Part shown: in pieces, positions 3,115-23,718 of the stretch | How the letters are laid out: every line of letters starts with the position of its first letter | How positions within the stretch are numbered: the first letter of the stretch is position 1 | Virus record (IMG/VR): IMGVR_UViG_3300033149_005434 | Span: 1 to 24,438 of that record | Source of the DNA: a virus | Strand: one strand, 5' to 3' | DNA: 24,438 nt | Program-made: the position numbers and the translations under genes | The notes under the pieces: model-generated | Databases searched by the model: none | What the model was told of the DNA's origin: nothing | The model's input: the letters and a program-made list of their open reading frames with translations, nothing else

Positions 3115-4383
3115 TTATGCAATTGTTCCCACTGCTATATATCTTGTATTTTCTCCAATTTTAACCTTTAATTTCTCTGTAATGGTTAGCGTACCGCCTG
3201 CTTGACTTTCGACACAACCCTCGATGGATGCAATGTTAAAGAAATTAGTTGATGCTCCTACATCCAGTTCGAAGATGTCAGTTACTCTTTCTTCTGTGTT
3301 GCTTAAGTTCTGGATTTGGACCATTGCATCTGCTCCAGCAGCTGATTGATTATGCACAAGGAGAATGGCATCAGTATCAATCATCGTTCCCCGGTTGGCA
3401 ATATAGGCAACATAAAGTTTATCATCACCTGCTACTGTTCCAGCAGTTCCGTCCCCGCTAATCATTGCTTGTAAAGCACAAACTCTACCAGATGCAGTGA
3501 TTTCTCCAGTTCCAAGATTAACATAAGCCGAAACAGCCGCGGCCTCATTAATAGTAAATGCGCCACTGGTAATTAAATGATTCTGACTAACATAAGCAGA
3601 ACCACTTCCCATTGCAGCGTCTATAGTTATCCTGGAAAATATATTCTGAACATCAACTCCGCTCCCCCAATCAACATTTTTGATATATATAGGGGTTTGA
3701 ACCATACCCTCTTTCACATATAATCCATATTCCCAGGGATAATCTGATACTGCATCCGCATAGAAGGCATAACTGTGTGTTGCTGTTCCACTATTATTCA
3801 GGAAAGAACGGAAACCTATTGCTTCCGTAATAGTTCCCCCCGCACTTAAATCAATTGCTGCTTCAAAAGCATAACCTTTGCTGAACGTAGCTTTCTTACA
3901 ATCGACATTTCCAACAATAGCCCTTGCCTGTCCTAATGTATGAGTAATACTGTCACCAGTAGTTCTAGCTTTTATCTCTGCACCAACTACACCTCCTTCG
4001 GTGCTATCGGCTGTTCCACCCCAGCTTGCCTTAATCTGCATACCCTGAAGCTGTTTACCTGAAGCAACTTTAGTTGAGGTAAACTGAGCATATATTTGTA
4101 CGCCAGGGTCGGTAGCTGTAGATGTATTCACAAAGGTAAGCTTACTATTTACAAATTCTAACTGGTCATCACTTGCATCCCACAAAATATATGAACCACT
4201 GGTTTCACCAAAAAATTTCTGGTCAAATCCAGCAGCATCTGCCCCAAATGTATTAGCTTTATCTAATAAAGGAACGGCATAGTAAATCATGTCACCAACC
4301 TTATCAAAGATAAAGCTCTCTCCTACCTTAATTAGCTCATTACGAGCATAAGAAAGCCTCGTAGTTGTACTTGTTAAACCCAT
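3115..4383 (-). CDS. Large beta-rich virion protein, head fibre or decoration-like
   Basis: 422 residues, rich in Gly, Ala, Thr and Ser with short regular strands (VNTSTATDPGVQIYAQFTST, QGMQIKASWGGTAD, GGVVGAEIKARTTGD, AEAIGF-like repeats). This suggests a beta-solenoid or multi-sandwich surface protein. The first 40 residues are different (SYARNELIKVGESFIFDKVGD) and may be an anchoring segment. The C-terminus ends in strands KLKVKIGENTRYIAVG. It lies two genes downstream of the capsid gene in the same transcript and is flanked by hairpins, which suggests abundant expression. A fibre or decoration role is inference. No enzymatic site is seen. Confidence 0.55.
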   Translation of the reverse strand: MGLTSTTTRLSYARNELIKVGESFIFDKVGDMIYYAVPLLDKANTFGADAAGFDQKFFGETSGSYILWDASDDQLEFVNSKLTFVNTSTATDPGVQIYAQFTSTKVASGKQLQGMQIKASWGGTADSTEGGVVGAEIKARTTGDSITHTLGQARAIVGNVDCKKATFSKGYAFEAAIDLSAGGTITEAIGFRSFLNNSGTATHSYAFYADAVSDYPWEYGLYVKEGMVQTPIYIKNVDWGSGVDVQNIFSRITIDAAMGSGSAYVSQNHLITSGAFTINEAAAVSAYVNLGTGEITASGRVCALQAMISGDGTAGTVAGDDKLYVAYIANRGTMIDTDAILLVHNQSAAGADAMVQIQNLSNTEERVTDIFELDVGASTNFFNIASIEGCVESQAGGTLTITEKLKVKIGENTRYIAVGTIA

Positions 4384-4973: not shown

Positions 4974-6191
4974 TCAGCCGATTCCCGTAATCCCATATGC
5001 TACGCCATGTCTCTTTGCATTTCCAACTTCAAGTGTAAACTGACCTTGATATACATCTTCTCGTCTATTTAGTCCCTCTTTTGCTGGCTGAACAGCGGTG
5101 TGAAGTTTCATCTCCTCACCCTTATACCAGAAGAACTTAATATCAGCCAAATCCAGTGCAACAATATATCCATCATAATCAGTTCCAGATGTAGCTGCTC
5201 CTTGCTCCAATATTCTTGTAGCATCTACGATATAAGCCATACGACCAGCCAAAGGATACTCAGTTATATTTAATCCGTAACTCTTATCCTTTGGAAGCAT
5301 CTTAAGTTTTCCTCTTGCCCAGTTATCAATTGCTTGTAAGCCATATTCACCGCAGAATAGATACAAAGTATCGGTATACTTAAAACAATCAAAGAGCCAG
5401 CTCTGGAAAGCAGACTCGGTTAAAGCTCCGCCAATATTAGTATTGGTAGCGTTTCCATCACCATCGCCAGTTAAGAAGTAGAAAATCCCACCATTGTATC
5501 TTTGGTAGGAATTTCCTTCCACTACTCCCGTTGCCTCACTACGAATACCGTGCCAGAGATAAAGTTCCATATCCCTTGCAGCTTCTCTTCCCTTTTTATT
5601 TTGAAGTCTTGCCAACTCATCTCCACCGTGCATAGCATTTACCATTACTTCTCTATTTATAGCAAATGCCCTTTGAAGTGTAGTTGTATAGTTGTATCTC
5701 TCTGTTACAGTCCCTTGATAAGCATCTACTCCACCAGAGCCTTCCTCAATTGCAGGTCCCATAATAAGAATATTCTCACCAGCAGCAGTATCACCTTCAG
5801 TAGTAGCAACAGTGTTAATTGCTGAAACAGTAAGGTCGGCAGCTCCAGTAGCTGAGGGAGCATCACATACAATTCCTACCCATCCATTTTCAGGAAGTTT
5901 AATAACATCCCATTTATGGAATCTACTACCCGTAGTTACTGACATAGTAGTTTCGGAAGTAGTAGCAGCAGAAGTAGAAGTAAAAGCATCTGCTAATGTA
6001 TCCCAGCGATTATCCAGCTCCTCTTGATACCAAATATGTTTCACACTACTTATGCTTCCTCTTTTTCCTATTTGGTTTGTGAGAACTGTTAAAGGGTTTA
6101 TCTTCGCATCTAATTTATTGACTTCTTCAGTGAAGTCATATATTTGTCTATCTGTAGCTAAATCATTTAATTCCTTGTATGTGCTTGCCAT
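4974..6191 (-). CDS. Major capsid protein, SU10/DUF5309-like
   Basis: 405 residues, normal for an HK97-fold capsid protein. The N-terminal arm contains DFTEEVNKLDAKINPLTVLTNQIGKR, then the VKHIWYQEELDNRWDTL segment, which resembles the conserved early region of SU10-type capsid proteins. A Thr/Ala-rich beta region (about 70-150) is followed by RYNYTTTLQRAFAINREVM and a long helix, AARDMELYLWHGIRSE. The C-terminal half has EYGLQAIDNWARGKLKML and ends in strands VYQGQFTLEVGNAKRHGVAYG. It lies immediately downstream of a scaffold-like gene and upstream of small virion genes, the standard order. No capsid-protease gene is recognised nearby apart from the distant HExxH protein. Confidence 0.85.
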   Translation of the reverse strand: MASTYKELNDLATDRQIYDFTEEVNKLDAKINPLTVLTNQIGKRGSISSVKHIWYQEELDNRWDTLADAFTSTSAATTSETTMSVTTGSRFHKWDVIKLPENGWVGIVCDAPSATGAADLTVSAINTVATTEGDTAAGENILIMGPAIEEGSGGVDAYQGTVTERYNYTTTLQRAFAINREVMVNAMHGGDELARLQNKKGREAARDMELYLWHGIRSEATGVVEGNSYQRYNGGIFYFLTGDGDGNATNTNIGGALTESAFQSWLFDCFKYTDTLYLFCGEYGLQAIDNWARGKLKMLPKDKSYGLNITEYPLAGRMAYIVDATRILEQGAATSGTDYDGYIVALDLADIKFFWYKGEEMKLHTAVQPAKEGLNRREDVYQGQFTLEVGNAKRHGVAYGITGIG

Positions 6192-7211: not shown

Positions 7212-7489
7212 TATTTTTCCTCCTTCCTTCTCCTGATTGCTTCCGCCTCTTTTAATACATTACTTACTCTGCTAAAAATTGAATTTAATGCTTCAATTTT
7301 ACCTTGAATTTTTGATGCTTTTGATAACTCTTTATCCAGATTTATTTTAGTTAATTCATTCTTCAAACCACCCACTCGCACTGAAAGGTAACTTTCAAGA
7401 TATTTCCAACCTTCAGTTTTTCTCATCCCTTCAAGAGCATCCGCCGTTTTTAACACTACTAATTGTCTTTTCTCTTCTTCTTTAGTCAT
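7211..7489 (-). CDS. Small helical protein next to portal, 92 aa
   Basis: 92 residues, almost entirely helical and charged. The core has WKYLESYLSVRVGGLKNELTKI followed by KASKIQGKIEALNSIFSRVSNVLKEAE, and the tail is basic/acidic (IRRRKEEK). The layout of a W-containing helix, then a Q-G-x-I/L-x-A-L helix, recurs in small genes near phage portals, whose function is not established. It overlaps the portal gene stop by one base (TAATG) and the next gene start by one base, so it is translated with them. Confidence 0.6.
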   Translation of the reverse strand: MTKEEEKRQLVVLKTADALEGMRKTEGWKYLESYLSVRVGGLKNELTKINLDKELSKASKIQGKIEALNSIFSRVSNVLKEAEAIRRRKEEK

Positions 7490-9177
7490 TATTTTCCCTC
7501 CGCTGGTGGTGTCATTGCTTTTCCTAATGTAGCTGACATTGTCTCTCCTAATTTCGCTGGACTTTCTTTACCGGGAGCTGTGACACCGGGAGGCACAGCA
7601 GCGGGAATTGCCATTTCCTCTGGAACAATCTTATCAATTGTCTCCTGTGGCACATCAAATTCTTCCAGAAGAATTCTTGCTAATTCCTGTAGTTTTAGAT
7701 TTGCCTGCATACCAAGAATAGCTTGAATTGCTGTTACAAATTGACCTCGCCTAACATCTTTAATTTCCTCTGGGTTAAGCGGAGCTACTTTAGGAATAAA
7801 ATAAAACTTCCCCTCAAGTCTGGATTTAGTTATAGTTAAGTATTCACCCCTTGCATCATCATCATAAAGAAATGGAATAGAAATTGACCCCTTAAAATAC
7901 TGTTGGTCAATAGCTGAAATCCATTCGGCTAATTCCCTCATTCCCAGATTTAAGGACATCATATTGATGAATTGGAAAATAGTATTTCCTGCTGCCTGAA
8001 GCCGAGCAATACCAGTAGCAGTTTCTCTTTGCTCTGGTGCTTTTCCCATCCAATATTCGTATAGACCAAGTCTATTTTGAATTTCTGTCTCTATTTCTTT
8101 AGCTTCCCGATAAACATCTCCTGTAACAAAAGGCCAGCCTCTATCAAAAAATGGTCTCAAAGCATCAAGGTCATCCATTCCTATCAAAGCATTTGGTTTT
8201 ATGGGTAATCCCTCTAAATCTATACCTGTTCCCTTTAGATATTTTAGAGGGGGATTGAGAATTAAATTAACATTATCAAATCTCTGATTTTTAATATGAG
8301 CTAATTCTCTAATATGAGGCTCTATTGCTTGTATTCTTCCTATTCCCCAGAATGACTTTGGTTTAGGCCAATCAATCATAACAATATAGGGGATAGCTTT
8401 CTTCTTTGTGTAAGGATTTTCATCTTCCCTTAATACAACTTTCCTTTCTCCGATAGTAACCACTCGGTCTCTTTCCCAATATTCAAGGATTTCGTAAATA
8501 TCTTCTTTTTCTTTCGTAGTATATCTTTTACCTTCTCCCTCTACTTCTTCAATCCATTTGCCGCCCTTTTCAGCTAAAAGCTCTTTTGTGTTTTTATATG
8601 TAGATTTATTGGAATATTTATAGGGTCTTCCCATTGCTTCAATATATTTTCTATTTCTTAAAGCTCTCTGGATTACCCAGGGAACTTCATAAATTGAATA
8701 TCCATTGGGAGATGGGTAGAAATTCTTATTATCAATTCGCTCTATTTTAGGCTCTTCCTTCTCTCTATCCCAGCAAGGCTTTCTTATGGAAGTACCGTAT
8801 ATTGATTTTGATTGAAGCCATTGAACTATATTTAAGAATGTGAAAGGATTATCCAATCGGAAAGTTAATAATTCCTTTTGAATTTTGGCAGCCTTTTCCC
8901 ATTTTTTAGCTCTTGCACCAACTGAAAAATATGGTCTCTGACCGAAGATAACCGCTACTTCTTTGGCTAAAATATAATCAACTCCAGCCTGTGCCCAAGC
9001 AGGCATAAGAGCAGATAATCCTCTATTTTCTCGGTCTTTTAATTCTGTGGAAGTGCCGTTATAATAATCTTCCCATTTATCAAAGTTAGAATGTAAATCA
9101 TCTTCTTCTTTTTTATTTCTCGCTAATGTAAACTTCTCGTTAATTTCTTTAACTAATCTTTTTTCTTTTTCAGTCAT
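7489..9177 (-). CDS. Portal protein, SU10-like
   Basis: 562 residues, typical portal length. The N-terminal helix-rich part has SNFDKWEDYYNG and WAQAGVDYILAKEVAVIFGQRP. The middle holds FLNIVQWLQSKSIYGTSIRKP (wing), DNKNFYPSPNG and IYEILEYWERDRVV. The stem/clip region is IPYIVMIDWPKPKSFWGIGRIQAIEPHIRELAHIKNQR, then ETATGIARLQAAGNTIFQFI, both characteristic of podovirus-like portals. The final 35 residues are Pro/Ala/Gly-rich and probably disordered. It forms the DNA gate at the capsid vertex and contacts the terminase. It follows the homing-endonuclease/DUF3008 region and starts the classical portal-scaffold-capsid order. Confidence 0.85.
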   Translation of the reverse strand: MTEKEKRLVKEINEKFTLARNKKEEDDLHSNFDKWEDYYNGTSTELKDRENRGLSALMPAWAQAGVDYILAKEVAVIFGQRPYFSVGARAKKWEKAAKIQKELLTFRLDNPFTFLNIVQWLQSKSIYGTSIRKPCWDREKEEPKIERIDNKNFYPSPNGYSIYEVPWVIQRALRNRKYIEAMGRPYKYSNKSTYKNTKELLAEKGGKWIEEVEGEGKRYTTKEKEDIYEILEYWERDRVVTIGERKVVLREDENPYTKKKAIPYIVMIDWPKPKSFWGIGRIQAIEPHIRELAHIKNQRFDNVNLILNPPLKYLKGTGIDLEGLPIKPNALIGMDDLDALRPFFDRGWPFVTGDVYREAKEIETEIQNRLGLYEYWMGKAPEQRETATGIARLQAAGNTIFQFINMMSLNLGMRELAEWISAIDQQYFKGSISIPFLYDDDARGEYLTITKSRLEGKFYFIPKVAPLNPEEIKDVRRGQFVTAIQAILGMQANLKLQELARILLEEFDVPQETIDKIVPEEMAIPAAVPPGVTAPGKESPAKLGETMSATLGKAMTPPAEGK

Positions 9178-9441
9178 TTATTTTCTCTTGCGTCCTTTTT
9201 TTCTTACTCTTTTCACTACTTTACGCTTTCTTCTTTTTGTATTACTTTTTCTTCTTTTTGTATTACTCTTTTTAGCGGGTAATCCCTTCTCTTTTGTCTT
9301 TGCGTAATCTCTTAATTGCTGAATAGTCATAGATTTGGCAATTTTTGCAGCCTCTTTAGAATAAGAAGCTGGTAATTTACCTCTTTTAATAGCCAAAGCT
9401 ATTCCCATAAGTCTATGTTGCTTTTTGCTTTTTGCGGGCAC
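9178..9441 (-). CDS. DUF3008-like basic phage protein, GTG start
   Basis: 87 residues. The N-terminal half (MPAKSKKQHRLMGIALAIKRG, SKEAAKIAKSMTIQQLRDYAKTKEKGLPAK) matches the well-known small phage family starting MPAKS.. with a terminal GLP motif. The C-terminal third is a Lys/Arg tail containing a direct protein repeat, KSNTKRR twice. The start is GTG with AAGGAGG seven bases upstream. Both this site and the GTG lie inside the 3' end of the upstream homing-endonuclease gene, overlapping it by 29 bases in another frame. It abuts the portal start. Nucleic-acid binding is plausible from charge only. Confidence 0.75.
   Translation of the reverse strand: MPAKSKKQHRLMGIALAIKRGKLPASYSKEAAKIAKSMTIQQLRDYAKTKEKGLPAKKSNTKRRKSNTKRRKRKVVKRVRKKGRKRK
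9227..9268 (-). repeat. 21-bp tandem repeat inside the DUF3008-like gene
   Basis: Two adjacent 21-bp copies, identical except for the last base, encode the repeated heptapeptide KSNTKRR in the basic tail. This is a recent in-frame expansion. Confidence 0.8.
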
Positions 9442-9862
9442 TATTAAACCTCCTTAAATTTGATAATGCTTCTTCTCTCATTTCCCAATCAATTTTTCTC
9501 AAGCGTTCTTTTCCTTCTCGTCTATTTCCACCACAATTTAGCATTGTTAAAGTAAAAGCTTCTGCGGCAAATACTTGAGGAATTTTTATCTTTACTTTCA
9601 TTTCAATATCTTTCAGAAATTTTACAAATTCTTCTTTTTTAGAAATTATCCAATGCCAAGTTCGGGAATGAGTAGGTTTATATCGTTTTAATTCTTCTAT
9701 TCTTCCTCCATATTGAATTCTCAATTTTTCTAAAATATCCAAATTAGTATTTGTAATACCAATTTGCATTCCCTTTAAATCCCTTCTTATACTTACGTGT
9801 CCCTCACCATCAAAAAGTCCTGCTGTATAATATAGATTTAAAACCTTGCTTTTAGCTGGCAT
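9413..9862 (-). CDS. LAGLIDADG homing endonuclease
   Basis: 149 residues. YYTAGLFDGEGHVSI (11-25) is a single LAGLIDADG motif with the catalytic acidic residue in DGEG, followed by IGITNTNLDILEKLRIQYGG and WHWIISKKEEFVKFLKDI, the usual alpha-beta-beta pattern. A single motif implies a homodimer cutting a pseudo-palindromic site. Its first six residues, MPAKSK, equal the start of the DUF3008-like gene immediately downstream, although most third codon positions differ. Its end runs 29 bases into that gene in another frame. No intein termini or room for a group I ribozyme are seen, so it looks like a freestanding endonuclease that captured the host gene's 5' end. AAGGAAAAG precedes the ATG. Confidence 0.85.
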   Translation of the reverse strand: MPAKSKVLNLYYTAGLFDGEGHVSIRRDLKGMQIGITNTNLDILEKLRIQYGGRIEELKRYKPTHSRTWHWIISKKEEFVKFLKDIEMKVKIKIPQVFAAEAFTLTMLNCGGNRREGKERLRKIDWEMREEALSNLRRFNSARKKQKAT

Positions 9863-10240: not shown

Positions 10241-10546
10241 TCATCCTCCAAAATTAAGATGATTATCTTTCAATACTTGATATAGACCATTTGCTAATGG
10301 TTCTATTTGTTCCTCCTTTAAACCATCTCTACAATATTCCCAATTAATACAGTGCAAGATTTCGTGACAAAAAGTATTTTCAATTTCCGATTTTGGTAAT
10401 TTAGCTCCATTTTTATCAATTTCGCTAAGTTTTATCTGTTTTTGAAGTAAATCTGCTTGTCCTGTATTATTCACCTCAGTAAAAACATAGGGGAATAGCA
10501 CTTTATAACTATGTCCCGCTATCTTTACCTTTTTAGGTATTTTCAA
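10241..10546 (-). CDS. Phage HExxH metallopeptidase-like protein, TTG start
   Basis: 101 residues with FCHEILHCINWEY: zinc ligands H61 and H65 and catalytic E62. The C-terminal helix EEQIEPLANGLYQVLKDN probably supplies the third ligand (Glu). This compact arrangement is seen in small phage metallopeptidase-like proteins related to SprT/ImmA-type domains. The start is TTG with AAAGGAG seven bases upstream. It is the first gene after the terminator-rich leader 10565-10892 and heads the portal/capsid operon. It could process a head protein or act on a host factor; the substrate is unknown. Confidence 0.75.
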   Translation of the reverse strand: MKIPKKVKIAGHSYKVLFPYVFTEVNNTGQADLLQKQIKLSEIDKNGAKLPKSEIENTFCHEILHCINWEYCRDGLKEEQIEPLANGLYQVLKDNHLNFGG

Positions 10547-10571
10547 ATTTATCTCCTTTCAAATATTATTG

Positions 10572-10604
10572 CAGAGTAGTATCCCTTCCCTTGTGTTTAC
10601 TCTG
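10572..10604 (-). other. Hairpin in the metallopeptidase leader
   Basis: CAGAGTA and TACTCTG pair perfectly (7 bp) across a 19-base loop that is purine-rich on the minus strand (AAGGGAAGGGA). It lies between terminator T2 and the ribosome site of the metallopeptidase gene and may be part of the same leader control. Confidence 0.4.
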
Positions 10605-10635
10605 TAATTCCCTACCAACCCTCCGAATATTCCAT

Positions 10636-10675
10636 AAAAAAAACCCTAATCCGCCCGTCAGCTGACGAATTAGGG
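10636..10675 (-). terminator. Intrinsic terminator T2 (minus strand)
   Basis: Read on the minus strand, CCCTAATTCGTC pairs with GGCGGATTAGGG (12 bp including two G.U pairs) around an 8-base loop, and is followed at once by eight T residues. The G.U pairs would be A.C mismatches on the other strand, so the minus strand is the functional one. It lies about 90 bases before the metallopeptidase start, so late-gene expression must pass it. Confidence 0.85.
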
Positions 10676-10686
10676 CAATTTAAAGC

Positions 10687-10705
10687 ATTAAGGAGCTACC
10701 TTAAT
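10687..10705 (-). other. Short hairpin between terminators T1 and T2
   Basis: ATTAAGG and CCTTAAT form a perfect 7-bp stem around AGCTA. The stop codon of the proposed 18-residue leader peptide falls in this loop. No T-run follows. Confidence 0.5.
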
Positions 10706-10752
10706 TGCTCATCAAAATATTTCAATAAAAAAAGCCAAAAGAAGACAAACAT
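10696..10752 (-). CDS. Possible leader peptide, 18 aa
   Basis: The frame reads MFVFFWLFLLKYFDEQLR and stops with TAG. AAAAGGAGG lies three bases before the ATG, a short but usable spacing. The ribosome site is in the 5' arm of terminator T1, and the codons run through its 3' arm and T-tract, so translation would disrupt T1. The peptide is strongly hydrophobic and aromatic. Gene status is uncertain: the frame may be chance, but its overlap with the terminator is the classical attenuator layout. Confidence 0.3.
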   Translation of the reverse strand: MFVFFWLFLLKYFDEQLR

Positions 10753-10777
10753 TTGCCTCCTTTTGGCCTATGTTTTT
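10727..10777 (-). terminator. Intrinsic terminator T1 with buried ribosome site
   Basis: On the minus strand the 34 bases 10767-10734 fold into a nearly complete stem. GCCAAAAG pairs with CTTTTGGC, and pairing continues inward through GGCAAA/TTTGTC with two G.U pairs, followed by seven T residues. The stem contains AAAAGGAGG and the loop contains ATG. A T-run also follows on the plus strand (10772-10777), so weak bidirectional termination is possible. The G.U pairs favour the minus strand as the selected one. Confidence 0.85.
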
Positions 10778-10858
10778 TGTTATTTCCTGCTGTGTCGTTG
10801 ACTCTCAAAGGAGGACGCACAGCAGGGAGCTTATTTTTTATAAATGTTAGATTAATTC
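10727..10858 (-). ncRNA. Predicted small RNA or attenuator leader with anti-SD loop
   Basis: From the expected start of the promoter at 10865-10892 to terminator T1 is about 130 nt, a normal small-RNA size. The order is an AU-rich 5' end, hairpin H1 (10786-10826), an A-rich linker, and terminator T1. H1 has a 12-bp stem with one bulged A and a 16-base loop that begins CCTCCTTT. That octamer equals the anti-Shine-Dalgarno tail of 16S rRNA and is perfectly complementary to the AAAGGAGG inside T1. It may act in trans on ribosome sites or in cis as an antiterminator. This is inferred from sequence only. Confidence 0.6.
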
Positions 10859-10864
10859 AAGATT

Positions 10865-10892
10865 ATTATAAACTTTCTCTCACAAGTGTCAA
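10865..10892 (-). promoter_or_regulatory. Consensus promoter reading leftward
   Basis: On the minus strand TTGACA (10892-10887), a 16-base spacer, and TATAAT (10870-10865) match the sigma70/sigmaA consensus in all twelve positions. It is preceded by GGGGG, as is the terminase promoter at 14300. It fires into the hairpin/terminator leader before the portal and capsid operon. Confidence 0.85.
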
Positions 10893-11066
10893 CCCCCCAT
10901 TAGTTCAAACTCACAACTGGAGCGAATACTATTCCCCAAAAGAATGGAATTATTTCTACTTTTATTTTATAGAAATCAACTTTACAAAATGGAGCGGGGA
11001 AAATATGACTCTCTCCAATTTCCCAATAATTATGTGGAATTGGAATATAAAGTAAGTTATCTTTGT
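10893..11066. other. Non-coding stretch upstream of the 10.87-kb promoter
   Basis: No gene with a ribosome site is seen here on either strand. It contains two related segments, AACTGGAGCGAATA and AAATGGAGCGGGGAAAAT, and is otherwise AT-rich. It may hold activator sites for the adjacent promoter, but nothing specific can be named. Confidence 0.4.
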
Positions 11067-11315
11067 TCATTTTATTTCTTTATAGACAATAATCCTATCA
11101 CTTTGTAATCCTTCTAAAATTCTTACTTCTCCGAAAGGGCTACAAAAAGTATGGATTTCTGTTGGGCGAATGCCTAATTGAACTTTATGAGCTTCTATGT
11201 TTAGCTCTTTATAGGCTCGTGGAGAAAGAACAAGCAGGTCTGGTTGAACGCTGTTATTAGATAATTCCTCAAGTAAACTTGTCATTTCACTTATAATACT
11301 TCTTTTTAATTTCAT
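11067..11315 (-). CDS. Hypothetical protein between terminase and head genes, 82 aa
   Basis: 82 residues with AAAGGAGAGAG just before the ATG. An N-terminal helix (RSIISEMTSLLEELSNN) is followed by LLVLSPRAYKELNIEAHKV and strands GEVRILEGLQSDRIIVYKE. The pattern of LSP..Y, then a short alpha/beta end with R.I.V., resembles fragments of capsid-like or major-head-like minor proteins, but it is too short to assign. It is the last gene before the terminator region. Confidence 0.5.
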   Translation of the reverse strand: MKLKRSIISEMTSLLEELSNNSVQPDLLVLSPRAYKELNIEAHKVQLGIRPTEIHTFCSPFGEVRILEGLQSDRIIVYKEIK

Positions 11316-11371
11316 CTCTCTCCTTTCTTAATTTAATTCTACCATTTCTTTTCATTATTTTCCTTCTTTAA

Positions 11372-11638
11372 TTATTCCCAATCTTCGGGACAATATTTTT
11401 TAATAAGTTTTTTTGCGTCTTCAATAATTTCCCTTACTCTTTTCTCTGGTAGATTTTGCAACCAAACAATATCATTATCTACAAAATCTAACTTCCAAGA
11501 AAAAGATATTGTATCGTTTTTTGAGATTGTCAAAATTTCACTTTCTTTAATTTCTCTATCTTCCCTACCCCTCAGAATGCTTCTAACGAGGGTAAGTATC
11601 CCTATTGCTCTTATTTTTTTCTTTAATTCTTTTCTCAT
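11372..11638 (-). CDS. Hypothetical protein, 88 aa
   Basis: 88 residues with AAAGGAGATAATT before the ATG, 17 bases after the terminase stop. The N-terminus is basic (MRKELKKKIRAIG), the middle is beta-like (ILTISKNDTISFSWKLDF, DNDIVWLQ), and the C-terminal helix is VREIIEDAKKLIKKY. It is probably co-transcribed with terminase. No family is recognised. Confidence 0.5.
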   Translation of the reverse strand: MRKELKKKIRAIGILTLVRSILRGREDREIKESEILTISKNDTISFSWKLDFVDNDIVWLQNLPEKRVREIIEDAKKLIKKYCPEDWE

Positions 11639-14377: not shown

Positions 14378-14405
14378 TTGACAAACTGTGTGTGTATGCT
14401 ATAAT
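14378..14405 (+). promoter_or_regulatory. Consensus rightward promoter
   Basis: TTGACA, a 16-base spacer, and TATAAT match the consensus at all positions. It is the only evident promoter for the single rightward operon, whose first ribosome site starts about 18 bases further on. The strength and the divergent layout suggest early, host-RNA-polymerase-driven expression. Confidence 0.85.
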
Positions 14406-18295: not shown

Positions 18296-18367
18296 TGGGG
18301 CTGACGAGAATTGAACTCGTTTCTCCTGTGTGAAAGACAGGGATTCTAACCATTAAACTACAGCCCC
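18296..18367 (-). tRNA. tRNA-Glu (UUC)
   Basis: On the minus strand GGGGCTG pairs with CAGCCCC (7 bp). The anticodon arm is CCTGT-CTTTCAC-ACAGG with anticodon TTC. The T arm is ACGAG-TTCAATT-CTCGT. The D arm is GTTTAATGGTTAGAAT. The discriminator base is A and no CCA is encoded. All arms are intact, so it is probably functional. The first ten bases overlap the end of the upstream gene, whose TAG stop is at positions 8-10 of the tRNA. Confidence 0.95.
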
Positions 18368-22583: not shown

Positions 22584-22611
22584 ATTATACTCTTTTTTGA
22601 AAATTTGTCAA
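22584..22611 (-). promoter_or_regulatory. Consensus promoter for the early leftward operon
   Basis: On the minus strand TTGACA (22611-22606), a 16-base spacer, and TATAAT (22589-22584) match the consensus fully. It overlaps the last codons of the HTH gene and precedes the 104-residue membrane-protein gene, so it is likely the main early promoter of the 15.75-22.6-kb block. Confidence 0.85.
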
Positions 22612-22763
22612 GTCTCCCATCTTTGCTTTCGGATTATTTGGTTAATTCTCTGGCGTGATAAGTTTAACAATCTACCAACATCAGCTTGTCTCCAACCTTC
22701 AACAAAGATAAAGTGTTTAATAAGTTTCCTTTTTGTTTCGTTTAACTTTTCTTCTTTTTCCAT
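22608..22763 (-). CDS. Small HTH protein, 51 aa, near-leaderless
   Basis: From ATG 22763 the protein is 51 residues: MEKEEKLNETKRKLIKHFIFVEGWRQ followed by a helix-turn-helix (QADVGRLLNLSRQRINQIIRK) that resembles a sigma region-4 or small regulator recognition helix. An upstream ATG (22826) lies beyond the promoter. The -10 box is nine bases before the ATG and no ribosome site fits, so the mRNA is nearly leaderless. Its promoter and the following early promoter are adjacent, which suggests autoregulation or control of the early operon. Confidence 0.65.
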   Translation of the reverse strand: MEKEEKLNETKRKLIKHFIFVEGWRQADVGRLLNLSRQRINQIIRKQRWET

Positions 22764-22772
22764 AGCATTTAC

Positions 22773-22801
22773 AATATAACATAATTTTATAGAAGTGTCA
22801 A
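22773..22801 (-). promoter_or_regulatory. Promoter for the HTH gene
   Basis: On the minus strand TTGACA (22801-22796), a 17-base spacer, and TATATT (22778-22773) give eleven of twelve consensus positions. The -35 box overlaps the end of the phosphoesterase gene. Transcription would start within about three bases of the HTH ATG. Confidence 0.8.
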
Positions 22802-23718
22802 GGGATGGAGGTAAATAATCTCCCATTGAAAATAAATTTATGTTTTATCACAGGCACTTGCTCTAAATGAAATAAATCCTTTTTACTAAAATAAGCAATA
22901 CTAAATCCCTGGGTCCAATTTGTAAAATCCAGATATTCTGCATCTAAAGAACACATACAGGGATTTTCATACCAACCAAAAGTGCCTTCCATATTTCTTA
23001 CTACGAAACTCCCACTACGATGAGCGTGTCCTATAATCCCACAACCTCCGTAACGCTCAAAATTTGCTTTAGCGGTCCAACCCGAATGCTTCCTAATAAT
23101 AAAGGAATGATGAATCTTTAATTTATGGTATCTAATGGGAGGATGTAGGTAAGAATAATAAGGGATATGCTTCTCTGGTAAGCCCAACAAACTTTCTATT
23201 TTTAAGCATCGTAATCCAAATAACTCAGGATTTCTCCGTAAGTGCTTCTCTAGTCTTGCCTCGTGATTCCCCTCAAGGAAAGTTATATCCTTTACATACT
23301 GTTGGATTCTCTCAATGATTCCGATTCCCAAATCAACCTCTTCTTGAAGGGAGGCTATCCTCTTGGGGTCTTTATCAAAATTACTGATAGAATAGCAATC
23401 TAAAAGGTCTCCCAGAATAAAGAGTTTATGAGGTTTGAAAAATTTTAGAAATTTCAGGAAGAGGCTAAAAAGAGCATAATCGTGGAAGGGAATATGGAAG
23501 TCTCCTATAAATACTACTCGCTCAAATTTCTCTTTTGCTTCAATCTCTCTTTTCTTCCATTCCTCATCTCTCCGCAACCATCTTATCTTTTCAGCGTTAA
23601 TATCAATACCAAAGAAACTTTTTATATTTTTGGATAATTCCTCATCGGTGTGTTCAAGATAGGAAGTTTTAATATAATCATATATAACAGGATGGTCTTG
23701 CCAGAATTTACTTCCCAA
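22798..23718 (-). CDS. Calcineurin-like metallophosphoesterase, TTG start
   Basis: 306 residues. The N-terminal 60 are extra (VIYDYIKTSYLEHTDEELSKNIKSFFG, possibly a DNA-binding helical domain). The enzyme has GDFHIPFH (72-79), GDLLDC (103-108), GNHE (150-153), H203/H204 and GHAHR (230-234), the full set of the two-metal calcineurin-like superfamily. Substrates in phages include nucleotides, nucleic-acid ends and proteins; none can be chosen here. The start is TTG with AAGGAGG five bases upstream. Confidence 0.85.
   Translation of the reverse strand: MGSKFWQDHPVIYDYIKTSYLEHTDEELSKNIKSFFGIDINAEKIRWLRRDEEWKKREIEAKEKFERVVFIGDFHIPFHDYALFSLFLKFLKFFKPHKLFILGDLLDCYSISNFDKDPKRIASLQEEVDLGIGIIERIQQYVKDITFLEGNHEARLEKHLRRNPELFGLRCLKIESLLGLPEKHIPYYSYLHPPIRYHKLKIHHSFIIRKHSGWTAKANFERYGGCGIIGHAHRSGSFVVRNMEGTFGWYENPCMCSLDAEYLDFTNWTQGFSIAYFSKKDLFHLEQVPVIKHKFIFNGRLFTSIP

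Follow-up and report, generated by a model that had tools for sequence, protein, structure and literature searches.

Ahead of the portal and capsid genes of an uncultured phage lies a consensus promoter that leads almost at once into hairpins and tandem terminators, and the question is whether these merely separate two operons, yield a small RNA, or control the entry of RNA polymerase into the structural genes. The window (the whole stretch of DNA analysed) is a 24,438-base virus record from IMG/VR, and most of its genes are on the minus strand. It encodes SU10-type portal and major capsid proteins (PF23899, PF17236) as well as a terminase large subunit (TerL). Bacterial and archaeal genomes were scanned twice, with portal and TerL alignments and profiles, and no host genome or prophage was found. 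The features of the locus and of the genes behind it, in the direction of transcription, are as follows.

10865–10892, minus strand: sigma70/A-type promoter, TTGACA-N16-TATAAT, 12/12 consensus match
10786–10826, minus strand: hairpin H1, 12 bp with a bulged A and a 16-nt loop beginning CCUCCUUU; −22.2 kcal/mol
10807–10814, minus strand: anti-SD octamer CCUCCUUU of the H1 loop; its complement AAAGGAGG lies in T1
10732–10769, minus strand: intrinsic terminator T1, 17-pair stem and 7 T; −23.1 kcal/mol
10695–10751, minus strand: 18-codon frame ATG...TAG (MFVFFWLFLLKYFDEQLR), starting in the T1 loop
about 10685–10701, minus strand: weak third hairpin, between T1 and T2
10643–10676, minus strand: intrinsic terminator T2, 13-pair stem and 8 T; about −19 to −19.6 kcal/mol
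10241–10546, minus strand: gene for a 101-aa HExxH-type protein (phrog_1233, E 1.9e-18), the first past the terminators
7489–9177, minus strand: SU10-type portal protein gene, in the operon behind the proposed gate
4974–6191, minus strand: SU10-type major capsid protein gene

Promoter, predicted RNA and tandem terminators

The full-consensus promoter that a sequence-only reading of this DNA had described is present. The window contains three 12/12 promoters (the others at 14378 on the plus strand and 22611 on the minus strand), and about 0.02 such matches per strand are expected from base composition. Transcription is predicted to start at about 10858. The initially transcribed region, where a lambda-type late gate would have a Q binding element (QBE) and a −10-like pause sequence, contains TATAAA at about +17 to +22 within AT-rich surroundings, to which no QBE consensus is applicable. 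Folding of the minus strand, which that reading had proposed as a check, gave an RNA far more stable than its shuffles: the ~132-nt RNA at 10858–10727 folds at −45.3 kcal/mol, its shuffles averaging −23.0 (z −6.42; 0/200 as good), and a longer RNA of 223 nt has a z of −7.46. Rfam at gathering threshold returned tRNA only for the whole window, and a sensitive scan gave no near-cut-off match at the element; the sub-threshold matches there (a tmRNA fragment and snoRNAs) are weak and were dismissed as chance. The phage also encodes a tRNA-Glu (TTC) at 18296–18367.

The two terminators are largely as first described. T1 has its seven T residues and spans 10769–10732, with three G.U pairs rather than two, and T2 has its eight T residues, with a stem of 13 pairs rather than 12. 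The 18-codon frame, put forward as a leader peptide, exists, but its SD–ATG spacing is just 3 nt and nothing comparative supports a leader role. Its Phe/Leu run arises because the U-rich terminator imposes most of the codons, and the frame is probably not translated.

A simple account of this arrangement is that the terminase operon stops at T1 and T2, that the promoter is there by chance, and that the structural operon has a promoter of its own that is unrecognised or phage-specific. Terminators are common at operon boundaries, and the promoter directly follows the end of ORF 10900–11070. Our scan was of the sigma70 type, which promoters of another class would escape; it found no minus-strand promoter-like site of at least 9/12 in the stretch from T2 to the next gene. 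A perfect promoter that meets two terminators within 220 nt would nonetheless be a waste if neither the RNA nor the read-through mattered, and the order promoter–terminator–late operon recurs in three relatives (see below). The terminators may merely insulate operons, although we consider this account as a whole rather unlikely.

Terminators upstream of the late operon in relatives

Portal searches yielded six contigs corresponding to four distinct relatives: G001 (L014), G003 (L016), G006 (L019) and L018 (with L017). A further designation, L015/G002, looks near-identical to G003. Scans with the TerL, portal, capsid, 101-aa and 82-aa proteins likewise found four distinct relatives sharing TerL and portal, and no more. 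Identity between the window and these relatives is 65–72% for the portal and 67–73% for TerL.

Conservation of H1, T1 and the octamer, on which the sequence-only reading had staked its proposal, is not borne out: none of these sequences was found in the four relatives, with the caveat that noncoding DNA is largely diverged at such distance. An exact pattern search of viral contigs for the H1 loop and stem gave 0 matches, blastn of the 1-kb locus against a phage collection gave none, and scanning the relatives' loci for CCTCC in hairpin loops revealed no counterpart. The gap between TerL and portal in the relatives is short and contains no such RNA. A LAGLIDADG homing-endonuclease gene (window 9413–9862), which lies upstream of the portal gene and has a lysine/arginine-rich small gene on either side, is missing from the corresponding gap in the relatives read. 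Against the relatives, blastn with the element as query gave a sole, weak match to the T-rich tail of T1, and it was through this match that the relatives' own terminators came to light.

All four relatives have one or two strong intrinsic terminators upstream of the TerL–portal–capsid late operon. Two have tandem terminators before TerL: G001, with T runs at 44191 and 44387 (−42 kcal/mol with T7, and a second of −22 kcal/mol with T7), and G006, with T runs at 3194 and 3054 (−33 with T7 and −22 kcal/mol with T6). The other two have one each before TerL, a 110-nt hairpin in G003 (32067; −50 kcal/mol, T7) and a terminator of −24 kcal/mol with T6 in L018 (1063). By a scan for T6 runs, these pre-TerL hairpins are the clear terminator-like ones on each record's late strand. 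Other strong folds beside T runs are mostly longer than 110 nt or multi-domain, although one in G003 (at 7249) is a 56-nt fold of −21; these were set aside by inspection, and the exclusivity of the locus is partly a matter of judgement. A 10/12 promoter-like site is located about 285–375 nt upstream on the same strand in G001, G006 and G003, and no strong promoter was found ahead of the L018 terminator.

The base of the first terminator, GAGCGGTCAA...TTGGCCGCTTTTTTTAT (GCGGTCAA...TTGGCCGCTTTTTTTAT), is conserved in G001, G003 and G006, and the upper stem varies in sequence and length with pairing kept in each of them. This conserved terminator upstream of TerL is seen at L016:2880–3015, L019:2925–3000 and L023:1415–1520 as hairpins of 50 to 110 nt. 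Two diverged relatives also have in common GGCGTGGG...CCGCC followed by AAGGGGA...AAAGTGGG just before TerL (L016:3020–3075 and L018:1660–1745); the purine-rich, conserved-looking region before TerL in these two has no stable fold.

The feature common to the window and its relatives is thus a terminator gate at the entrance of the late operon. Its position differs, being before TerL in the relatives and between TerL and portal in the window, which suggests that a cassette of small genes and terminators (window 10241–11638) moved as a module. An evolutionary link between window ORF 11067–11315 and the small ORF preceding the relatives' terminators is too weak to claim.

Proposed read-through into the portal and capsid genes

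The reading that we tentatively prefer, with a likelihood just short of even, is that the element is a late-operon gate resembling lambda PR′-tR′. Host RNA polymerase would start from the consensus promoter at ~10858 and make a short structured RNA before being halted, for the most part at T1 and otherwise at T2. The portal and capsid genes would then be reached only by read-through, both from this promoter and from the upstream terminase operon, and read-through would probably be raised late in infection by an antitermination activity that is phage-supplied or RNA-borne. H1 would be a leader hairpin, acting as an RNA stabiliser or a recognition hairpin.

This gate reading draws on the perfect promoter and two strong tandem terminators directly before the structural operon, and on the recurrence of the order promoter, terminator, late operon in three relatives. 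The shift from a site before TerL to the TerL–portal gap counts against it, as do the failure to find a strong promoter ahead of the L018 terminator and to detect a Q-type, NusG-like or ArpU gene in the five records, most of which are fragments. The earlier suggestion that the element decides read-through into the portal and capsid genes is plausible: it fits the anatomy, and the relatives keep strong terminators where the late operon is entered. What is new in the evidence is the recurrence of this terminator gate; the element in the window is well formed and in a meaningful place.

In lambda, Q makes polymerase ignore the terminator before the late genes (PMC6606751). The element shares with PR′-tR′ of lambda and phage 21 a strong promoter, a short terminated leader RNA, an intrinsic terminator and late structural genes on the same strand, and differs in its tandem terminators, its large 5′ hairpin with an anti-SD loop and the lack of a detected Q homologue in its phage (PMC6606751). 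The likeness is one of geometry. Genes of the Q type (PF06530, PF03589) were not found in the window and four relatives, of which the window and most relatives are fragments. The same five records, again mostly fragments, contain no detected ArpU gene (TIGR01637) and no NusG-family gene (PF02357) of the kind that would be expected for processive antitermination by NusG paralogues. The put RNA of HK022 likewise folds into a hairpin as it emerges, near the beginning of a phage transcript, downstream of the promoter and ahead of the terminators, but it acts on early transcripts, and the likeness is geometric alone, with no known sequence relation (PMC9378689).

The presence of strong terminators at the entrance to the late operon in all five records, diverged as these otherwise are, suggests a late switch that works by control of read-through. 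Such a switch in uncultured SU10-type phages would point to a putative antitermination factor. The window also encodes a sigma-70 region-4-like protein of 72 aa or shorter (22608–22826) behind an 11/12 promoter, a candidate late-switch regulator.

The anti-SD loop of H1

Hairpin H1 has the 12 bp, bulged A and 16-base loop first described, in the layout CCTGCTGTG-CGT-[CCTCCTTTGAGAGTCA]-ACG-A-CACAGCAGG, and the perfect complementarity noted between its loop octamer CCUCCUUU and AAAGGAGG in the 5′ arm of T1 is exact over 8 nt. Of the shuffled loops, 0.26% match 8 nt of the T1 arm and 1.2% match 8 nt somewhere in the 150 nt downstream; the match is unusual, yet it was picked post hoc, and a p of about 0.003–0.012 is suggestive.

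One use of this match would be an attenuator in which the H1 loop captures the SD in the T1 arm and so opens T1, with translation of the 18-codon leader tuning the choice. The exact complementarity (p about 0.003) speaks for it, as do a geometry in which H1–SD pairing and T1 are mutually exclusive and the transcription of the SD ahead of the T1 3′ arm. T1 is worth −23.1 kcal/mol, however, against −14.4 for the loop:arm pairing with the pseudoknot cost still excluded. Being about 9 kcal/mol stabler, T1 would face no competition at equilibrium, and at most a kinetic effect during transcription is possible. Neither a leader ORF with a functional ribosome site (the 3-nt spacing again) nor an antiterminator fold of comparable stability was found, and T2 would stop polymerase anyway. 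With its elements also absent from the relatives, the proposed switch between the H1 octamer and T1 is not supported, and we regard it as highly improbable.

A second use would be in trans, as a stand-alone ~132-nt small RNA whose H1 loop blocks phage or host ribosome-binding sites, with T1 as its ordinary 3′ end. The RNA has its own consensus promoter, a terminator and a C-rich loop, and the loop octamer is identical to the 16S rRNA anti-SD core of Bacillus-type bacteria. Nine copies of AAAGGAGG are present on the minus strand, several at early-region gene starts. The loop does pair well with the ribosome sites of the phage, a comparison that the sequence-only reading had proposed as a check, but because it equals the 16S anti-SD core it pairs with nearly every SD at about −8 to −17 kcal/mol, weakly only at start regions with a poor SD, and so indicates no specific target. 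The best pairings are at the start sites 18279, 7211, 20247 and 22239 (about −15 to −17 kcal/mol). In the predicted fold, part of the octamer is also tied up in a short helix of 3 bp, and H1 and its loop have neither conservation in the relatives nor an Rfam family. Silencing of ribosome sites in trans is thus possible and non-specific, and we judge a dedicated small RNA of this kind unlikely. A broader version makes the RNA a mimic of the 16S rRNA 3′ tail, the loop sequestering strong AAAGGAGG sites, chiefly those of early-region genes, and aiding an early-to-late switch in protein synthesis while the terminator of the RNA itself gates the capsid operon; this appears very unlikely.

Precedent for action in trans comes from the Gram-positive small RNAs LhrC, RsaE and RNAIII, which act on ribosome-binding sites through UCCC or C-rich loops (PMC4132741). 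The element resembles these in running from promoter to terminator and in presenting a C-rich loop whose sequence complements SD sites, and is unlike them in its single loop, in having CCUCCUUU rather than UCCC, and in its phage origin, with no known target and no homologue found (PMC4132741). The c4 antisense RNA of P1 and P7 similarly has loops complementary to a ribosome-site region in a phage RNA, whereas the element has no Rfam match at gathering threshold and its complementary SD is inside a terminator stem (PMC12197685). The anti-SD loop is real and any role for it putative, and we treat it as a curiosity rather than a believed function.

A separate structured element is present in one relative at L016:1425–1481 and is expected in L015 too. 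ARAGORN makes no call on this 57-nt tRNA-like sequence, which corresponds to the two ends of tmRNA, 5′ and 3′, with the mRNA-like part missing. It scored 47.9 bits against Rfam tmRNA in a larger search (cut-off 47) and 24.7 bits in a smaller re-search, and has a 7-bp acceptor stem, GGGGGTG/CACCTCC, and a T-arm, GGGGGTTCGACTCCCCC.
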